In this document: piece by piece, positions 2,790-20,489 of the stretch
Layout of the letters: the number at the start of each line of letters is the position of its first letter
Position numbering within the stretch: the stretch's first letter is position 1
Assembly: GCA_910592205.1 (NCBI GenBank)
Contig: CAJVPJ010000622.1
Span: forward strand, 1 to 20,654
Length of the DNA stretch: 20,654 nt
Source of the DNA: Paraglomus occultum
Taxonomy: Eukaryota > Glomeromycota > Glomeromycetes > Paraglomerales > Paraglomeraceae
Reading direction: 5' to 3'
Program-made: the position numbers and the translations under genes
Notes under the pieces: generated by a model
Told to the model about the DNA's origin: nothing
The model's input: only the letters and a program-made list of their open reading frames with translations
Database searches by the model: none

Positions 2790-3805
2790 TCCCGAACAAG
2801 ATCACAGATTCTACCAGTATATGATTACCTGGCCAGGGAATTTGAAATAAATTATTCGACTAACAAAGCGGTTTATTAGAGACTGAGAGAAAAGGACCTA
2901 ATATAGACGATGAAGTTTGCTGAGTGTAACTACGTAAGTAAGCCAAACAAACCCGACTAACAATTGGAGACAAACAACAGTTGATAAAAGATAAAGAAAT
3001 ATTCTTTCGCTAATAAATATAAAGGAATTATTTTATGATAGCTGGTTGACGTCAGGTGATACGTACAGTCGCGGTGAAGTGGAGATGATGGAGAGGCCCT
3101 GATATGTCGACACCCGTTAGCGTTTTAGTTTTGTTCCTGCCTGCTGTCCGCGAAGCGGTTTAAGGCGTACAATCTCCGTGCGACATTAATATAACGTAAA
3201 TTACAATTATAATAACCAGGCATAACCGACAGAGAGAAGGGAAGACTATAAAGTTTGTTTTCTTTTCCTGTTATTGGATCTTGTGCGATGCCGTCGTATG
3301 CTCCGTAAACTTCGGTTATTCTTTAGACAAATACAATTCCAAGATATAGAGCTAATTGATGACGTCGTCGCTCGAACGACCCCACCGACAAAACGTTATT
3401 TATGTAGTTCGGAACGCTGTTATTATAGACGTTCCATTTATGGCCCAAAGAACCTCGGCCAACGTAAATAACAGAAATATGAACACGTGCTGCGTGCGAA
3501 GAAATATTCGTCTGCAGCACGCCCCAACATACTGTAATAGTCTTCCGATCATATGCATTTGTGGATCACGAGAACATGTTCGCTGAGTTAATATTAATAT
3601 TAATAGTAATAGTGAATAAGATTTAGTCCGAAAGCGTTATATGGTGTAACAGCAAAAAAGCTATCGTTCACTGGTCAAAAGTGCAAATCAATCACATGAA
3701 TGAATATTCATAAAGAATGTGAATAAAGTTTCCTCGCGATAGAAGTTGATTGAGAATCTCCAGATTACCTTAAACGTTCTAGCGTTGAATTGGTTCGACT
3801 CGGAT
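2790..3805. other. Intergenic stretch between the Fanzor remnant and the Tudor gene
   Basis: No gene recognised. Small overlapping frames at 3274-3586 on both strands lack domains and splice support. A small stem (CCGC, loop GAA, GCGG) lies near 3150, and AT-rich TTAATATTAATATTAATAG near 3587-3605. The last few hundred bases should contain the promoter and 5' UTR of the Tudor gene, but no individual element can be named. Confidence 0.4.
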
Positions 3806-5944
3806 ATGAGCCAGCCAATCGAATCGACCGTCGTCGACGACGGAGCTGTGGCTCGTGAGGACGTTGAGCATCCCATAACAGCAACCAACAATATTGAGAC
3901 TAATGGCCATTTTAAAGAAGCCATGCCACTTACAGAACACTCTCTTAGTTTGCTTGCGTCTACAGAATCAAAGAAGAACGAAAATATTAAACAGAATTTC
4001 CTTCATGATCAAACTATTAATTCGACCCTAGACTTTGATTCAGATTCAGATTTATCGAGTCTGAGTTCTTTGGAAACTCTCAGTTCGAGTGGTCTAGAAA
4101 GTTTGGCGGCGGAAACTTTTGAAACCGTCACGTTAAGCCCTAAAGTATCGGCGCCAACCAATGATACAATCGTCCGTCAGCCTCGGCGAGGAAAACGTGT
4201 TCGTGGGGATAAATCCTATTCAAACAATCGGAGAACAAGCGCACGTGTCATCCACCGCGTAAATGCTTTGGAATCAACTTCAAAACGGCGTTCTAAACGA
4301 ATTCGTACTGGAAGGCGTAAACTTGCTCAAGCTAATGCTGGCTCTGAACAAGCATCGCCTTTAGCAGAAAAGAAGCATTGCGATAGTTGTCGCACAGTTC
4401 ATCTCGATGTTATTCAAGTTTATGATCTTTCTTTATGCTCATATTGCCGTGGTGTATTTTACGATAACATCGGTATAAGACGATCTAGATGTGGTGGTCA
4501 ATCCAGATTTGATCAATTTAAACGCGTTAAAGTACTCTGTCGCGATAGGAAGTGGTACCCAGGAGTAGTGATGGAGTATAAGCAGGAACGGTTTAAAGTG
4601 CATTTTGAAGGATGGGATGAGATCTATGATGAATGGATACCGACAAATAGCCGAAGAATGAAAGACGTAACATTAGAAGAATTTTTCGGAGACCAACAGT
4701 CATCCGATGATGTTTCCCCGCCCAAGGCTGCAGAAATCAACCCTGTATCTGACATTGAGATAGACTCGACAGATCGTGAGCTCACCCCAACAACAGAGGT
4801 ACAGTCGACTGGCACAGATGATCGGACGTCTCAGCCTCGGCGAGGAAAACGTGTTCGTGGTGATAAATCCTATTCAAACAATCAGGGAGCAGACAAACGC
4901 GTCAATGGTTTAGCGTCAACGCCAAAGAGACTTTCTAAACGAATTCGTACTGGAAGGCCTAAACTCGAATATAGTGCTCAGGTTAATGCTATCCCCGAAC
5001 AAGCGTCGACTTCAGCAGAGAAGAAACTATGTGATAGTTGTCACGCAATACACCTTGATGTTCTTCAAGTCTATGACCTCTCTTTATGCTCATACTGCCG
5101 TGGTGTGTTTTACGATAACATTGGTATAAGACGATCTAGATGTGCTGGTCAATCCAGATTTGATCAATTTAAACGCGTTAAAGTGCTCTGCCGCGATAAC
5201 AAGTGGTATCCAGGAGTAGTTATGGAGTATAAGCAGGACCGTTTTAGAGTGCGCTTTGATGGATGGGACGAGAGCTACGATGAATGGATACCAACAAATA
5301 GTCGAAGAATGCGAGACGTAACGCTGGAAGAACTTCTCGGACTCCAACAGTCATCCAATGACGTTCCAGCGCATAAGACTGTAGAAACAGAGACTGAATC
5401 TGAGGTTGAGATAGATTCGACAACAGATCTTCAGCTCATCACAACACCGGAAGCACAGTCAACTGGCAGTGATGACCAGACATCCCTTCCGGCTCCTCTG
5501 ACCCCTAGCTCTACTGATGATAGTTTCGATTGGCGTGAACTCTATCTTAGACGCAGTCCGCGTAAACGTGGTCATAAAAATAAAGCTCCTTTCAGATACG
5601 ACGAAGACAGTTTTACGAATCAAGCGGAACTTAAAGCTCGGTTTCGTCCTGGTGCCAAGGTGGAAGCCCGCGATAAATGGAGAGAATGGCATTTCGGTCA
5701 GGTTATACAAGCAAAGGGATATCGTGTGTTGATACACTATGATGATCTCCCAAACATTTATGATGAATGGATCGATATGAACAGTGAACGATTGAAGGGC
5801 GGATACGAGCCGGGAGAGGGGCCCGATGACGATGAATGCGACAGGAAGAAGAACGTTGGCAAAACAAAGGCTACTCAAGAAGAGGATTGGGAATACGTGA
5901 AAGATGGAATTAAATATAGCACTGGACGAACTAAATGTGTGTAA
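3806..5944 (+). CDS. Triple Tudor/chromo-barrel chromatin reader with duplicated C4 finger
   Basis: Single-exon gene, 712 aa from the first in-frame ATG. The frame stays open a further 60 bp upstream, back to a TAG, without another ATG. The N-terminus is acidic and Ser-rich. Two consecutive copies follow of: basic QPRRGKR / KRIRTGR stretch (AT-hook-like in copy 2, TGRPK), C4 finger (C192, C195, C211, C214; then C410, C413, C429, C432) and a Tudor-like barrel (about 236-290 and 454-508) with the hallmark WYPG-x-V, GWDE-x-YDEWI and aromatic positions. A third barrel (about 612-666, ending YDEWI) lacks the finger. The family resemblance is to Tudor-knot/MBT-like readers of the PHF20 kind, which bind methyl-lysine; binding here is inferred. 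It probably acts in the nucleus. It is co-oriented with the methyltransferase gene starting at 6139. A downstream splice joining the two genes cannot be fully excluded. Confidence 0.88.
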   Translation: MSQPIESTVVDDGAVAREDVEHPITATNNIETNGHFKEAMPLTEHSLSLLASTESKKNENIKQNFLHDQTINSTLDFDSDSDLSSLSSLETLSSSGLESLAAETFETVTLSPKVSAPTNDTIVRQPRRGKRVRGDKSYSNNRRTSARVIHRVNALESTSKRRSKRIRTGRRKLAQANAGSEQASPLAEKKHCDSCRTVHLDVIQVYDLSLCSYCRGVFYDNIGIRRSRCGGQSRFDQFKRVKVLCRDRKWYPGVVMEYKQERFKVHFEGWDEIYDEWIPTNSRRMKDVTLEEFFGDQQSSDDVSPPKAAEINPVSDIEIDSTDRELTPTTEVQSTGTDDRTSQPRRGKRVRGDKSYSNNQGADKRVNGLASTPKRLSKRIRTGRPKLEYSAQVNAIPEQASTSAEKKLCDSCHAIHLDVLQVYDLSLCSYCRGVFYDNIGIRRSRCAGQSRFDQFKRVKVLCRDNKWYPGVVMEYKQDRFRVRFDGWDESYDEWIPTNSRRMRDVTLEELLGLQQSSNDVPAHKTVETETESEVEIDSTTDLQLITTPEAQSTGSDDQTSLPAPLTPSSTDDSFDWRELYLRRSPRKRGHKNKAPFRYDEDSFTNQAELKARFRPGAKVEARDKWREWHFGQVIQAKGYRVLIHYDDLPNIYDEWIDMNSERLKGGYEPGEGPDDDECDRKKNVGKTKATQEEDWEYVKDGIKYSTGRTKCV
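4178..5487 (+). repeat. In-frame 654-bp direct duplication inside the Tudor gene
   Basis: CAGCCTCGGCGAGGAAAACG occurs at 4178 and again at 4832, an offset of 654 bp (218 codons). The copies stay aligned through the basic stretch, the C4 finger, the Tudor barrel and the acidic tail ending STGxDDxTS. Copy 1 is about 4178-4831 and copy 2 about 4832-5487. Finger and barrel are nearly identical at the nucleotide level. The linker between basic stretch and finger and the acidic tail have diverged most, which points to selection on the folded parts after a unit duplication. Confidence 0.93.
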
Positions 5945-6138
5945 ATGTATCTGTCTATTTAATTTTTGGTTAACACTAGAGTAATATGTCATATTGTTTG
6001 GTAAAACTGTCTTTCTTTTTTGAGCCGTTAGCTTTGTGGCTTTCCGAAATTCTTTGTCTTTTATTTCTTCCTTACGGGGTCTCATTGGTCTTCATCCGTT
6101 CTTTGTTGAGTATTCGTTAACTGTCGTCGATCTTGCTA

Positions 6139-9100
6139 ATGAGTCACCGATGGCGTACGGCTATGACGTGCCTTTTTATAGACTTGAAACAATGGTGTAT
6201 TTACTGTAACCAATGTAACATCGTTATCAAGCAGTTCAGGTAAATCGTGTATTTTTTTTTTTTAATTTTTTTCCTTCATTCATTTTCGTTCATCTGAAAC
6301 TTTATTATCTGGGCAAACAGAGTTTATTGCACATACTGCGAACGACCTTCGGATGGATATGACTATCAAAGTTTCGATCTGTGTTTATGGTAACTATTTA
6401 ATGATTAGGTCTTAAATTTAGTTTGGATTGAAATGTCGAGAATTATACGTTTTCATGCATAATATCTCACTATAAATACTTTTCAGGTGCTATGCTCACA
6501 ATTTTCCCGACTTTCATGACCACCCTCGTTGTTCATTTGCCGTGCAGACAGTAATAGGCGATCAAGCGCCACAGATTACCTCAAAAGGAGATCTCGTTTC
6601 TACATTTGAAAAAGACATGGTTGATGAAACTTATTCCACTGCACATCTTGACTTATTAAATAGTACTAAACCACTCGTAGGAGATACAGGGTATATGTAC
6701 TTGAAGGCGTGGAAATCAAGAAGAATATGTGGGTTTTGTAATGACGACGATGACAATCATCTTGGTGGATTTATTGGTCCATATCCCTTTATCTCATGTG
6801 CGGCTACGCGCCACGGTGAGCGGAAGAAGATTTTCTGGAGCCATTACGCGTGTGCCAAGTACTCTCCAGAGGTGTTCCAGTCAAAAGATAATATATGGTA
6901 CAACGTGACTACTGCTTGGCGGCGTGGAAGAGGAATGGTATGTATATTTATTTTGTCCCCAGAATGATCATACGTCACCTGTTTATATTAACGAGACGCA
7001 TGCTTACAAAAATTAACAACTTGTGCAGAAATGTAGCAAATGTAAAGAAAGGGGCGCAACTATAGGTTGTTTTGAGCCCAAATGCACTAGGAGTTTCCAT
7101 CTTCCATGTACGGATAAGCCACTTGAACATTTTGAGATGGGCGTTATTTTCTATTGCCCAACGCATGAAGCATTCTACGACAAGAGAGGTATATATTAAG
7201 TGAAATTATCTGGTATGTGCGCGTTAAGCTTGTTATATAACGTACGTATTTTTAACATGAACCTTAGATGAATATAACGAGCTTTTTCGATGTGACGTAT
7301 GTGCACAAGAAATGGATACAGACAAATGGTGGACGTGCAAGCCTTGCAGCACACGCTTTTTTAATTCTTTCGATTTATGTCCCAAGGTTAATTTTACTTG
7401 AAGCGAGTAAGAACTCGATGCAAAATTCATCCTGCTCACATTAATTGTTATTGAATAGTGTTATACTGGCCAGTTTCCTGAACACGAGCATGCCAAGGAA
7501 TCGTTTGAAGAAATATGTAAGTCAATCGGCTGCTTTTATTTCAAAGATCGCATTGACTTTGTAAAATTAAAGACGTAAATAATAGCATTACAGAAGATTA
7601 AAGATGAGAGAATAACCAGGCAAGCAAAAATCGCGGTTGCCAACCAGAAAGCACGGGCTACAGGTACTTGCGAATAGTTTAATAGGCCATTGTGATCGTG
7701 TTGACTAATATACTGTTTCCGTAACAGGAATGCGCAAAAAACCAAAACAGTTTCCGCAGAAAAAAGAACGTATTCATTGTTCATATTGTTGGTCGGAAGA
7801 ATCTTCCCGATGGCGCAAAGGTAGATATTCGAATAATTTATTGTGGTTGATCTTCATATATCTTACGACTTTTTTATCTTTACTAGGTTATGAAGGAGTT
7901 TTAATGTGCGAGGATTGCTTTGAAGTAGCCCTTGTAAATAACTCTGCCTCTGATTCTCAATTGGGTACTGAATATGTGACCTCTTTCGAAGATTATATCC
8001 ATGCACCATACCTTACACGTACATCAGTAGCCGCCAGTAAATTTGACAACTCGAAATCACAAGCTCGCTATTTAGACAACTATGAACCATTAGAAAATCA
8101 ATTATTCTCTCTTCCCTTTGATTCATCGTATTTTGACATTCCCGGACGAGCCCCGCGGTGGGCCACACATAGTGGAACGGATTACCATGGTACATGGCTT
8201 CCACAGACTGTACGTCGAGCGTTACAGCGTTATACTCGAAAGAACGATAGAATACTGTCAAATTTCCTCGGTCGTGGGACGGATGCTATCGAATGCTTTT
8301 TACTATCCAGACGGTGTATTGGAATTGATATAAATCCGGCTGCTGTTGCGTTGTCACAACGTAATTGTTCTTTTGCAATACATCCCGGAAAGGGGATCAC
8401 CGCTGAGCATCGACCAATTATCGTACAGAGTGACTCTCGCGAATTGAGGGGCAGTCTATTTGAAGATGAGAGCTTTGATCACGTATTGAGTCATCCTCCA
8501 TACAAGAACTGGTAAGCGAAAAAAACAACAAAGATTTGTGTAGTCGACATTACGACATATTTACACTTTCGTTTTGATCATCCTAGTGTTGAATATTCAA
8601 CCCATATTGATGGAGATCTGTCGAGATTTGCTAATTCGAAAGATTTCAACCTCGAAATGCAAAAGGTAGTTGACGAGTCTTGGAGGTATGCATATGAAAT
8701 AATTGTTGTCAGTTGTCATTATTATTGACATACGATCGAGCTCATATGATGTACATATATTTGCGCCAGGCTATTAAAGCCAGGCCGTAGAATTACACTA
8801 GGAATCGGCGATAATCGCGAGCAATGCTTCTATATTCCAGTTAGCTTTCAATTGATTCGCGAATATATAAATCGAGGTTTTCTCCTCGAAGAATTGGTAT
8901 TTATTGTTTCAGGTTATACCTAATTTGAAGCAAGCGACGAAACTGTAATGATAATTTCCCTATCGACTATTATCTTCTTAGGTGGTGAAGCGCCAAAGAT
9001 ACTGTTCTGCCTTTGGACTTGGGACGTACCTGTGTACACAATATGACTTTTTGATGTTTACGCATGAATTCGTTGCTACTTTGAAAAAGGTCGACCGGGA

Positions 9101-10347
9101 GAGTAATGATAGGATGCTATTAAACTCAAGTATGGTTTTATTACCGATATGTCTACTTGCACGAATTCTCTTATTCGGAATGTTAATATTTTAAAATCTT
9201 TTTAGCAAGCATGGATTACTCTAGAGTATTGGGAGTTGTCAACTTCTCGAGGACCGTACGAGAAATACCCTCTTTACCCATTGCGCGAAAGAGTGTAGTA
9301 ATGGGAACAACGTGGACGTTCAAACCTACAGCTAAACATGATTTTGTGCTTCTCTGCACGTCGAGAATGGTAGAACGTTTTGGCAGAGATTCGGCCAATT
9401 GGGAAGAAATCAAAATAGAATTTAAAAATATAGAGGTAAGGACAATTTGACACAGAGTTGTAATTGCAGGCGATTTCATTAATTTAACTGGTTTTACCTT
9501 ACCAGCAACCAACAAATGATAACGGCCAAACAAGCATCATACAGGAAATCGGTAGGATACCAAGACATAAAGTACTAAAGACCGTTGAAGGCGACTTTTT
9601 TGATTATTGACGCATCCCGGTTTTCACATAGTGCCAATGATTATTGAAGACGAGAACATTCCGGAATACGAGCGAGCACGCCTGAAAAGAATACAAGAAA
9701 ATCAAAAAATGCTTCTCTCATTGGTAGTTCCGATCCTATCTGCAATTCTCATAAATGTATTAACACTAAAATATCCTTTTCAATCACAGGGTTTAATATC
9801 AGATCTAAGTGAAGAGTCAGATGATCTTTCTCACGTCGAAAAACTACTTTCTCTCGAAGCACTCCCACCACCGACACCGATAGCACTTATTGTCATTCCT
9901 CACATCCCCAACTCTGTTCTCATCAATCATGACATAAAAGACTATCGCTTGGCGACTATGCATCTTGCTCGTGAATCATACGAGAAACTTCCTCCGTCTG
10001 GATTCCTTATAATAGGTACTCAAGACGTGCGTACAAGAGATAATAAATTATGGCCATTGGGATTGTTAGTGTTGGAAGATGTGAAGGCTGTGGTTGGGGA
10101 AGATAAGATGCCATTAAAAGAGTTAGTCATTACTGTTCCCGAGGGATATGCCAAAGATAGGCGGAAGATTACATCATATGAAGAGTATTCCGAGGAAAAG
10201 TGTGTTCTGGATGAAGAAAACGTTCCCGAGTTGCCAATTGTGCATGTAAGTTTTCGGTGAATCAATAATTTGACACTTGTATCTGTATATTTGTTAATGG
10301 TTTCTTTTGTACAGGCATGCTATCTCGTATTCATGAAACTTCGATAA
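6139..10347 (+). CDS. ZZ-ePHD-ZZ-C4 finger protein fused to a bacterial-type DNA methyltransferase and a degenerate second MTase half
   Basis: Seventeen exons: 6139-6239, 6321-6389, 6487-6937, 7029-7188, 7268-7386, 7459-7516, 7586-7663, 7728-7820, 7887-8511, 8587-8685, 8770-8896, 8982-9129, 9206-9435, 9506-9551, 9632-9723, 9790-10245, 10315-10347; all phases agree, 994 aa. Domains: ZZ (C23, C26, C37, C40, C55, C58, H67/H69); extended PHD (knuckle C138, C141, H176, C179; PHD C209, C212, C221, C226, H231, C234, C250, H253); ZZ (C269, C272, C284, C287, C298, C301, H309, H311); C4 finger (C363, C366, C384, C387); amino-methyltransferase with SAM motif FLGRG (503-507), GIDINP and catalytic HPPY (579-582, spanning into an exon end), then LLKPGRR and YDFLMFTHE. 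Residues 813-832 resemble the YExxRLxxIxxN stretch of WDR76-type proteins. The tail (about 863-994) is MTase-like but has HIPN where HPPY is expected. Likely role: chromatin-targeted DNA N6-adenine or N4-cytosine methylation. Start ATG follows an in-frame TAA at 6118; the 5' end is the least certain part. Confidence 0.8.
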
Positions 10348-18370: not shown

Positions 18371-19837
18371 CTAATACCTAGAAAATTTACCCACGTCGAA
18401 GCTCTTGTTGGGCCACCTGATACTACGATTATTAGTCAAATGATCAAGTTCATTCAGAAAGTCAACCACAGGTGACACACCCTTTGGCTTGCTGGGGTGG
18501 TATCCGTCGTTCAGAAGAACCGTTTGGCGACTCGAAGAGAGCTCGACTTCATCATATTCATCGACTGAGGTACTATCGGCAAAATCTGGAGGACTAATAG
18601 TAAACACGTTGAAATTTTCGCTTGCGAAAGATGACCCCATGACAGATTCCAATCTAGACAAAATGTCAGACAACCCATCCACATCAGTGGACACTACTTG
18701 CTCCACTTGCTCTTCAACAAGAACAAAAGTCGGACTATGAATATCAATAGCCAAACGTCTCAGCATATGCTCGACTTCATCTCTGCTCATGCCAACCGGA
18801 AACAGTACTCGCAATTCTCCATTCATAATTCTGACTTGGAACTTCCCATGTCCGAGCAATAACCTCAGAATAGTCAATGCGTTCAGAATATGGTTGTATC
18901 TCGTTTGAAAAATGTCGTTGAGATTACGAACGAAAGCAGAGTCCAATGGTATATTACGCGTTTCATTGTTTATCGGGTTGTTCATGATCGTGATCATAGA
19001 ATCAATAGATTCACTCACGAGCGACTCAACATCCAATTGACAAAGTTTAATTGACATTTGAATCTGTGTTAAGGTTACCAAAACTGGAGAGTCATCGAAA
19101 GATTCTTGATAAACAACTAGGCTGTCATCAAACTCTGATTCAACGTCCTCGTTTGCCTTTTCACAAGCTGGCAATTCCTTGACAACAGACGTTCCAAACG
19201 GTACAACGTTCCTCAGATTGAACGTATCAAAACTAGCAGTCTTCTTGGAAGCTTCCACAGAACTCTTGGTTGCTTTCTTTTCGAATTCTTCGTACTGCAT
19301 AATCCGATCCTTCATATCCTGTTTCTCCATCCATCGAGTACCAAGTTTATTGGGAAGGGCAGCGAAAGGTTTAGCGTAGAATTGCGAGAGGCTCCCATTG
19401 ACAGTCGCAGCATTGTTTATGGCTTTAGCACCACAGGTAAAGTTACGTCTGATTGAATATCTGAAGGCATCTCTCATGCTACAGTGTCGCATGTATACTG
19501 CGCTAGTAAGCAAAGTATTGCCGGGATGTTTCTGAAAGAGGCTAAGCCTCTCGATTGGAATATAAGCATGTTTATATAATGGATTGACAGAGTTTGCAAT
19601 GGGAAAAGCCTTCTTGATCAACTCGAAAAGTTTATTGTCTTCGCGAACTTGCTGACCACTTTTGTGTGGTTTAAAAGATTGTTGGAATGCTACTAACTGA
19701 TGTTGTATGTTACTAACTTGACCCAGGTTATTTGCGCGCACTTTTGGCGCAGTATTGTTAAAAGTAGGGACTTTGGCCCAAAGGGACGCCGCTAAGCGAC
19801 CCACGGGTTCTGTCCAAGTTTTTATTTTAGGCAGCAT
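18371..19837 (-). CDS. Conserved-looking 488-aa protein, possibly mitochondrial, function unknown
   Basis: Single-exon minus-strand gene with an ATG start and TAG stop. No ATG-independent extension is needed. The N-terminal 170 residues are basic and poor in acids, including MRDAFRYSIRRNFTCGAKA, which looks like organelle-targeting sequence, although it lies internally (about 120-140). A middle section is acidic (ESEFDDSLVVYQESFDDS). The C-terminal third contains helices and a segment reading GELRVLFPVGMSRDEVEHML, close in pattern to a small domain of fungal proteins sometimes named casein kinase II beta-2 or left uncharacterised; that link is from memory and weak. The tail is low-complexity and Ser-rich. 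No catalytic motif is visible. Confidence 0.75.
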   Translation of the reverse strand: MLPKIKTWTEPVGRLAASLWAKVPTFNNTAPKVRANNLGQVSNIQHQLVAFQQSFKPHKSGQQVREDNKLFELIKKAFPIANSVNPLYKHAYIPIERLSLFQKHPGNTLLTSAVYMRHCSMRDAFRYSIRRNFTCGAKAINNAATVNGSLSQFYAKPFAALPNKLGTRWMEKQDMKDRIMQYEEFEKKATKSSVEASKKTASFDTFNLRNVVPFGTSVVKELPACEKANEDVESEFDDSLVVYQESFDDSPVLVTLTQIQMSIKLCQLDVESLVSESIDSMITIMNNPINNETRNIPLDSAFVRNLNDIFQTRYNHILNALTILRLLLGHGKFQVRIMNGELRVLFPVGMSRDEVEHMLRRLAIDIHSPTFVLVEEQVEQVVSTDVDGLSDILSRLESVMGSSFASENFNVFTISPPDFADSTSVDEYDEVELSSSRQTVLLNDGYHPSKPKGVSPVVDFLNELDHLTNNRSIRWPNKSFDVGKFSRY

Positions 19838-20489
19838 CGTGAAGCCCGAGCCGCAAGTACTCGAATGTTACTAACTTGTCCTTCTGCCAGACAAAATGAA
19901 AATTGAAATCAGCGATATAATGTTAGGGAACCCGCCAATATATAATAACTCCGGCATTATTAATGTTACTGGCCCGTGCCCACGCACAAATGCTACTACG
20001 CATTCTACATTACCATAAAAGTTCTCTCACGTGGTTTGAAGGTAATGTAAATGAGTTTCGCTAGATGATAGATGCATATTTATTTATCCAGATCTGCTGA
20101 CTTCGGCAAGAAAAGCACTTTATCAATCCGATCATCCGTCAGACGTGACGGGTAATCTCAGCCGATCGTCCACTGAAATGTCCTTCTCGCGATTTACTCC
20201 AGCACTCGAACTTCCTTTGTTTATAGTCACACGTCTGACAACTCGTTTTATTTGGATTTGATCTGTCATGTGATAAAAATAGACGAGCATGCAATTCACA
20301 AATTGATCGATATTAATATTTCAACTAGATCGATATTAATATTACAAGTCAAAGCTCGAAAAACCGATAGCACTTGAGAATGTGTTCACTTCTGCGTGTT
20401 GGGACATTGTGCAAAGAATGTGTTTAATACCGATATTGTGTAACAAATGAATCTTTGCTATTGGTTATATTAATATCGGTGTATTATTA
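19838..20489. other. Upstream region of the minus-strand gene, with short AT repeats
   Basis: It should contain the promoter of the gene that starts at 19837. GATCGATATTAATATT occurs twice, at 20305-20320 and 20328-20343 (23-bp period). TAATACCGATATT (20425-20437) is nearly inverted by AATATCGGTGTATTA (20472-20486). No open frame is supported. Confidence 0.55.

Follow-up and report, generated by a model that had tools for sequence, protein, structure and literature searches.

The stretch of DNA considered here (the window, 20,654 nucleotides) is contig CAJVPJ010000622.1 of the glomeromycete fungus Paraglomus occultum (assembly GCA_910592205.1). On its forward strand, 17 exons at 6139-10347 splice into a frame of 994 amino acids (aa) that is open throughout and that joins chromatin-reader modules to a methyltransferase domain of prokaryotic type. 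The predicted product is one protein, of at least 994 aa and probably 1690 aa, built from three MBT/Tudor repeats, ZZ-like zinc fingers, an extended PHD (ePHD), a GATA-like finger, a domain with an S-adenosylmethionine (SAM) motif and an HPPY motif, and a non-catalytic second half. It is best, and quite probably correctly, read as a chromatin-linked, restriction-type DNA amino-methyltransferase of early-diverging fungi. Its features, all on the + strand, are as follows.

3806-5936, +: probable first exon, encoding an N-terminal part that holds three MBT/Tudor-like repeats, of which two form an internal duplication (PF02820; relatives)
5937-6181, +: proposed intron between the MBT exon and finger 1 (GTGTGT...TATAG), the weakest splice of the model
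6196-6532, +: zinc finger 1, ZZ-like (CIYCNQC...YCTYCE...DLCLWC...HDH), from its conserved Cys/His pattern with limits set by eye; exons up to 6239, 6321-6389 and the start of 6487-6937
6722-7166, +: ePHD, exons 6487-6937 and 7029-7188 (PF13771, PF13832)
7291-7491, +: zinc finger 2, ZZ-like by its Cys/His spacing as judged by eye, exons 7268-7386 and 7459-7516
7778-7918, +: C4 GATA-like finger (CSYC...CEDC), exons 7728-7820 and 7887-8511
8069-9098, +: catalytic amino-methyltransferase domain, exons 7887-8511 to 8982-9129 (PF01555; eukaryotic and prokaryotic relatives)
8264-8278, +: motif I, FLGRG, SAM binding (alignment)
8492-8503, +: motif IV, HPPY, catalytic (alignment)
8512-8586, +: intron splitting the Cys codon just after HPPYKN (spliced frame)
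9286-10344, +: non-catalytic methyltransferase-like half, exons 9206-9435 to 10315-10347 (hhalign)
10345-10347, +: stop codon (spliced frame)

All 16 introns within 6139-10347 have GT-AG ends and measure 64-97 nucleotides (nt). The open frame and these introns, including the one in the codon right after HPPYKN, bear out a preliminary description of the locus as a many-intron gene of 17 exons. That description had begun the gene at ATG 6139, which is likely not the start: the gene probably starts at 3806, with an MBT/Tudor exon added upstream. A single splice (5937-6181) links an upstream open frame (3743-5944), which encodes three MBT/Tudor-like stretches, to the 994-aa frame and yields one open frame of 1690 aa. 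In Paraglomus brasilianum, a protein of 1650 aa (P0001; 97% identity over the searched part) carries MBT, ePHD and PF01555 in one chain. Of the 67 proteins of a first search for relatives, 16 (P0001 counted) have MBT as well as PF01555, and 15 of these also ePHD; among 37 proteins new in a second search, the pair occurs in 26, 24 of them with ePHD. Because relatives carry MBT and PF01555 in one protein, the exon at 3806-5936 very likely belongs to the same gene through the predicted splice.

The catalytic domain matches PF01555 (N6_N4_Mtase) with 48.5 bits on the 994-aa protein and 46.8 bits on the 1690-aa protein (Pfam cut-off 26.7), and a generic Methyltransf_11 match barely passes its own cut-off (21.9 versus 21.2 bits). 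Neither MT-A70 (PF05063) nor PF02384 matches the window protein at expectation values (E) up to 0.1 in Pfam. Enzymes of the PF01555 type carry motif I in the form FxGxG and motif IV in the form [DNSH]PP[YFW]. With FLGRG and HPPY both located, the locus was correctly described as encoding a bacterial-type, PF01555-like methyltransferase, distinct from the MT-A70 (DPPW) type. Matches of the window domain to NCBIfam models all lie far under their cut-offs (HemK/PrmC, E 0.008-0.07). In the window domain motif I precedes motif IV, in contrast to the beta-type order (IV before I) of the PF01555 profile. The end of that profile (144-220) aligns to window residues 406-534, ahead of motif IV, and in the relative P0005 the profile start (2-145) aligns to the later part of the protein. 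The structure 2zie likewise aligns in two pieces in reversed order, the second piece being weak (12.8 bits).

The residues expected of a working site are strictly kept. HPPY is present in 47 of 48 aligned eukaryotic-type domains, the window included, with HLPY in the remaining one (the alignment takes 48 of 57 domain cut-outs, those of 240 aa or longer), and chance is therefore excluded. The motif I residues F503, G505, G507 and T508 are found in 38/38 eukaryotic-type and 79/79 prokaryotic rows, as are H, the second P and Y of HPPY, the first P being found in 37/38 and 79/79. Altogether the two sets of rows have 47 columns in common that reach at least 90% in each set, among them residues of FxGxGT, the DIN of the second SAM strand, HPPY, GDxR and HE. 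Because these core columns, with the SAM and HPPY residues among them, are kept in both sets, conservation speaks for an enzyme that works.

The C-terminal part of the protein, about 250 aa, had been overlooked in the preliminary description, which was right about the catalytic part. In a single hhalign comparison, the fungal C-terminal part aligns to the C-terminal half of prokaryotic relatives with a probability of 97.4 and E 1.2e-11 (51 of 54 eukaryotic parts, those under 420 aa, and 21 prokaryotic parts). This half also aligns, more weakly, to the catalytic domain (probability 84.8 on the prokaryotic and 61.6 on the fungal side); it is on that account probably a degenerate copy of the catalytic domain that lacks HPPY and the SAM motif. 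The same two-half build occurs in many prokaryotic relatives; most simply, both halves came into the fungal gene together, as one inherited enzyme.

The N-terminal modules point to chromatin. PF02820 (MBT) is above its cut-off on the open frame 3743-5944 (66.3 bits, three stretches), and the first MBT copy matches L3MBTL3, L3MBTL1 and PHF20L1 by sequence (PDB); the MBT/Tudor repeats are likely readers of histone methyl-lysine. Two ePHD models exceed their cut-offs (PF13771, 41.5 versus 29.1 bits; PF13832, 28.2 versus 27 bits), and the ePHD resembles KMT2D and PHF6 in PDB sequence matches. The Cys/His pattern of finger 1 is kept in many relatives. Up to E 5, the Pfam ZZ model gave no match to the window protein, in a search whose HMMER filters discard most weak matches; a sub-threshold ZZ match appears in the relative P0066 (E 0.0079), and a sub-threshold GATA match in the relative P0008 (E 0.0011). 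Fingers 1 and 2 are thus only ZZ-like, by Cys/His spacing. The fusion of a bacterial-type methyltransferase to chromatin readers stands: among the proposed domains, PF01555 and the ePHD lie above cut-off and the C4 finger is GATA-like, but the two ZZ labels, like the original gene limits, need correction. Within the MBT exon, the window carries a duplication at 4177-5274 (offset about 650 nt, blocks 82-88% identical), in which the 300-nt blocks 4324-4623 and 4975-5274 are 86% identical; both copies are present in P. brasilianum P0001 too.

All organism-named proteins in both searches for relatives come from early-diverging fungi, among them Dimargaris, Basidiobolus, Neoconidiobolus, Hyaloraphidium, Paramicrosporidium and Umbelopsis. 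The groups represented are Glomeromycotina, Mortierellales, Mucorales, Kickxellales, Harpellales, Zoopagales and chytrids. Family members occur in Mucor lusitanicus (P0017), Phycomyces (P0009) and Rhizopus microsporus (P0192), and several metagenome proteins carry the fusion as well. No member of the Dikarya and no other named eukaryote was found among the relatives, in searches that included nr, UniRef and EukProt and required shared short words, the second of which scored the best 8000 candidates. The window assembly holds one copy of the domain. This distribution indicates a family common to early-diverging fungi and not special to one species.

In a quick tree of 117 rows, the 38 eukaryotic rows fall on one side of a branch (100*). 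In a rooted, careful tree of 84 rows with an outgroup, the 29 retained eukaryotic rows form one clade (100/99). To build the careful tree, 9 eukaryotic rows with long branches and 35 of the 70 prokaryotic loci were set aside; of 11 outgroup rows added, 4 rooted the tree and 5 fell among prokaryotic rows. Its bootstrap had not settled and it gave long-branch warnings, and 12 metagenome rows were classed as eukaryotic by the analyst's own judgement. Inside the clade, the window groups with Diversispora and Entrophospora (100/98), and the Mucorales (100/100), the Kickxellales (99/95) and a chytrid group with one further row (100/98) are recovered. The branching is partly off taxonomy: Thamnocephalis stands with Benniella (95/61, unstarred), and Clydaea (P0054) falls outside the remaining chytrids in the quick tree. 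The distribution is most simply read as a single old acquisition from prokaryotes, for which the tree gives neither direction nor donor. Contamination is ruled out by the introns, by named fungal relatives at 97% to 32% identity and by the single clade of eukaryotic rows, which upholds the view of a long-settled eukaryotic gene.

Prokaryotic relatives are numerous. A search with the domain alignment returned 138 proteins, with prokaryotic entries named 'DNA methyltransferase' among the best 120, and a scan of a genome collection gave at least 566 relatives among 595 matching stretches, from very many phyla including archaea. The best 80 prokaryotic loci (L002-L081) were kept, ranked with a two-half query that favours two-half proteins; 79 prokaryotic rows are 35-44% identical to the window domain. 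The gene was recovered by pattern in 70 of the 80 loci, as open frames of 391-626 aa from stop to stop, and 64 of the 65 recovered genes in which the HEY motif was found continue for 120 aa or more beyond it. A downstream open reading frame of 90 aa or more is present in 64 loci, on the same strand in 59; these 59 were scanned (the 5 on the opposite strand were left out), and 42 of them lie within 20 nt or overlap. Recognised nucleases among the 59 are 7 DpnII, 3 DUF6996/DUF6997 and 1 PDDEXK_11 (Pfam), the DUF6996/DUF6997 neighbours being type II restriction enzymes by PADLOC; that these 11 matches lie in 11 different proteins follows from neighbour groups together with single scans. By our judgement, made without a control of random genes, this share of about a fifth is far above that beside an ordinary gene. 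The prokaryotic relatives thus appear to be the modification partners in type II restriction systems.

Two other families are frequent among the downstream neighbours, one in 25 of the 59 (about 110-195 aa; for instance L034:7563-8129) and one in 12 of the 59 (about 400-460 aa; for instance L078:1459-2793). Two members of each, scanned singly, match nothing in PADLOC and nothing above cut-off in Pfam. Found in the position that restriction nucleases take at other loci, the two families are candidate new restriction nucleases. Among upstream neighbours (46 of 48 on the same strand scanned), hits to PADLOC defence models are scattered, with one member each in 25 of the 34 families listed.

Several observations weigh against a restriction-derived DNA methyltransferase. 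In the careful tree the eukaryotic domains branch outside the prokaryotic set, as its sister group, and sit on a long branch; transfer and its direction therefore rest on distribution. Of the 59 downstream neighbours, 48 have no recognised nuclease, and some prokaryotic relatives, for example P0102 and P0105, have no second half. When the domain profile is compared with PDB, the nearest structure is the putative DNA methylase 2zie (E 7.6e-12), but the next is the tRNA N2-guanine (m2G) methyltransferase 5e71 (E 3e-9). The last match would suit a domain that methylates RNA in the manner of TRM11/Trm-G10, with the chromatin modules placing the enzyme at transcribed genes. So would the prokaryotic relative P0147, which NCBI labels 'TRM11 family' and whose best NCBIfam model is the tRNA-type TIGR01177 (45.9 versus 42.2 bits for the DNA model), and so would the motif order, I before IV being also that of TRM11/Trm-G10-like enzymes. 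We nevertheless regard RNA as an unlikely substrate. TIGR01177 scores no higher than 46 bits, its cut-off being 316, and of the three relatives compared with NCBIfam, all far under cut-off, P0087 and P0102 score best with a DNA adenine methylase model. PF01555 stands far above UPF0020 in two prokaryotic relatives (101.5 versus 27.0 bits and 101.7 versus 33.7 bits), and no THUMP domain is listed in the Pfam scan of relatives. A HemK2-like enzyme acting on a chromatin protein and not on nucleic acid is very improbable. Enzymes of the HemK family with [N/D]PPY act on proteins, the reader modules would bring histones to the active site, and the PrmC model matches P0102 (E 3.5e-7); its 29.9 bits, however, are far under the cut-off of 199.1, as is the case for the HemK/PrmC matches in general. 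DNA is preferred over both alternatives mainly because restriction nucleases adjoin part of the prokaryotic relatives; sequence alone leans to DNA as the substrate, without settling the matter.

Two further alternatives concern activity and gene extent. A catalytically dead reader or scaffold that retains the fold would be in keeping with a C-terminal half that is already non-catalytic, but the SAM and HPPY residues are conserved in the sampled fungi as strictly as in prokaryotes, which makes loss of activity highly unlikely. It is also quite unlikely that P. occultum encodes the MBT exon as a gene of its own, leaving the fingers and the ePHD as the only reader part. The upstream frame does end in a stop codon, the donor GTGTGT of the joining splice is weak, and the annotated P. 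brasilianum protein connects MBT and fingers differently and omits finger 1; the weak donor and the differing model are the reasons for which the start at 3806 is only probable. Against a separate gene stand the many lineages with MBT and PF01555 in one protein, and the relatives P0004 and P0061, in which the last MBT repeat runs directly into the same finger 1. Regardless of the start, ePHD and methyltransferase share one spliced frame.

The remainder of the assembly contains other methyltransferase loci. It has one MT-A70 match and five C5-methylase matches, six PF01555 matches (five with in-frame TGA, the sixth being the window) and seven PF02384 matches (four with in-frame TGA, three without). 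The TGA-bearing loci (L082-L086, L089-L091 and L094, on contigs C1268, C16, C393, C539, C89 and C853) have a GC content of 30-34%, and the other three PF02384 loci one of 38-41%; L085 has TAA and TAG stops besides TGA. The TGA-bearing, low-GC loci suggest a Mollicutes-type endobacterium that reads TGA as Trp. A recent transfer from endobacteria of the same fungus was considered and rejected: five of the six PF01555 matches carry in-frame TGA at 31-34% GC, and the same loci match the window domain weakly (best E 0.04). The PF02384 matches without internal stops, on contigs C260, C682 and C415 (L092, L093, L095), are possible MetB-type genes of the fungus itself. A viral donor is unsupported, as none of the 95 pattern hits in viral contigs is a relative by the fungal profile; with the prokaryotic profile, 4 of 19 hits in the viral collection are relatives of the HPPY methyltransferases (L101-L104). 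Elsewhere in the window, short tandem arrays lie at 623-775 and 1692-1849 (periods 28/56 and 47 nt), and the second longest stop-to-stop frame (18371-19867, - strand, 498 aa) has no Pfam match at E up to 0.1. Rfam gave no hit in the window.

The closest parallel is found in bdelloid rotifers. According to excerpts of its description, N4CMT likewise combines a prokaryote-derived PF01555 amino-methyltransferase with a reader of histone marks in a spliced eukaryotic gene; its catalytic motif, SPPY, precedes the SAM motif, and a chromodomain lies at the C-terminus (PMC8885841). In contrast, the fungal protein has SAM motif I first, HPPY, N-terminal MBT, ZZ-like and ePHD modules, a second half and a far wider group of species, and Pfam found no chromodomain at the C-terminus of the window protein. 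The fungal protein would work like N4CMT but belongs to a separate family. The prokaryotic HPPY methyltransferases (P0087, P0098, P0102, P0113 and others) share the core with it, and many, not all, the second half; unlike the fungal protein, they show no chromatin modules, and type II restriction nucleases adjoin part of them.

Other DNA methylases of early-diverging fungi have been described, and the statements that follow extend to the excerpts of the sources cited. MetB of Mucor, like the present protein, is a prokaryotic-type DNA methylase acquired by early-diverging fungi, but it consists of PF02384 and a target recognition domain and acts in the AAA6mACA context (6mA, N6-methyladenine), and chromatin readers go unmentioned in its description (PMC11258239). 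Mta1/Mta9 resemble the present protein in pairing one active with one inactive methyltransferase unit; they differ in being PF05063 proteins with DPPW, on separate chains plus P1, that place 6mA at ApT (PMC11258239; PMC13297926). In Mucor, MetA, MetB, MetC and Mta1 were tested: loss of MetB cuts 6mA by 70-75%, symmetric 6mA sites were undetected without Mta1, a metB mta1 double mutant was not found in the excerpts, and no PF01555 protein is mentioned there (PMC11258239). N4-methylcytosine (4mC) and 6mA are about equally likely as the product of the present enzyme, because the 25-30% of Mucor 6mA that persists after metB deletion leaves room for another 6mA writer.

Further reviews and surveys bear on this subject in the parts covered here. 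A 2026 review gives Mta1/Mta9 and MetB as 6mA writers (PMC13297926), and early-diverging fungi are counted among eukaryotes with robust 6mA, with MetB as an alternative route (PMC12695648). MT-A70 enzymes have been surveyed in arbuscular mycorrhizal fungi (PMC8298701), and 5mC enzymes are the subject of PMC7862722. The 4mC methyltransferases of Marchantia and Adineta are mentioned, as is a PF01555 search of three protists that gave no hits (PMC12344493), and transfers into 44 early-diverging fungi include no DNA methylase in the excerpts of the main text (PMC11291939). A search of open-licence papers by title and start of abstract, over the top part of the longer result lists, gave no paper treating this family, and a search for HPPY with DNA methyltransferase matched one on mites only. 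In these excerpts the fungal 6mA literature leaves the family unmentioned and names Mta1 and MetB instead, which agrees with the proposal of an undescribed candidate writer.

The catalytic part probably derives from a prokaryotic modification enzyme that belonged to a type II restriction system; it would have been acquired a single time, ahead of the divergence of the known early-diverging lineages. Through the reader modules the enzyme would bind to nucleosomes that bear certain histone marks, and the HPPY site would methylate an exocyclic amino group of DNA, either N4 of cytosine or N6 of adenine. The second half could assist in binding or selecting DNA, which would make the protein a single-chain analogue of the Mta1/Mta9 or METTL3/METTL14 pairs. 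We put forward tentatively, as a possibility held with less than even confidence, that early-diverging fungi have here a third DNA base-modification system besides Mta1 and MetB, perhaps with a 4mC writer that would be the first in fungi. Such an enzyme, recruited to chromatin from restriction-modification before these lineages diverged, would carry an inactive partner within the same chain and be targeted by the MBT, ePHD and ZZ-like readers, such that histone state would be copied into DNA.

The known writers of these fungi, as named in the excerpts, are MT-A70 enzymes and MetB, and the present family occurs in the same fungi, with a single chain that links a restriction-type methyltransferase to histone readers. 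Should the family prove active, it would represent a widespread kind of enzyme that reads histones and writes DNA, and it predicts a DNA mark that could be sought straight away in existing long-read data. The rotifer N4CMT would then be no curiosity but one of two cases of a general route.

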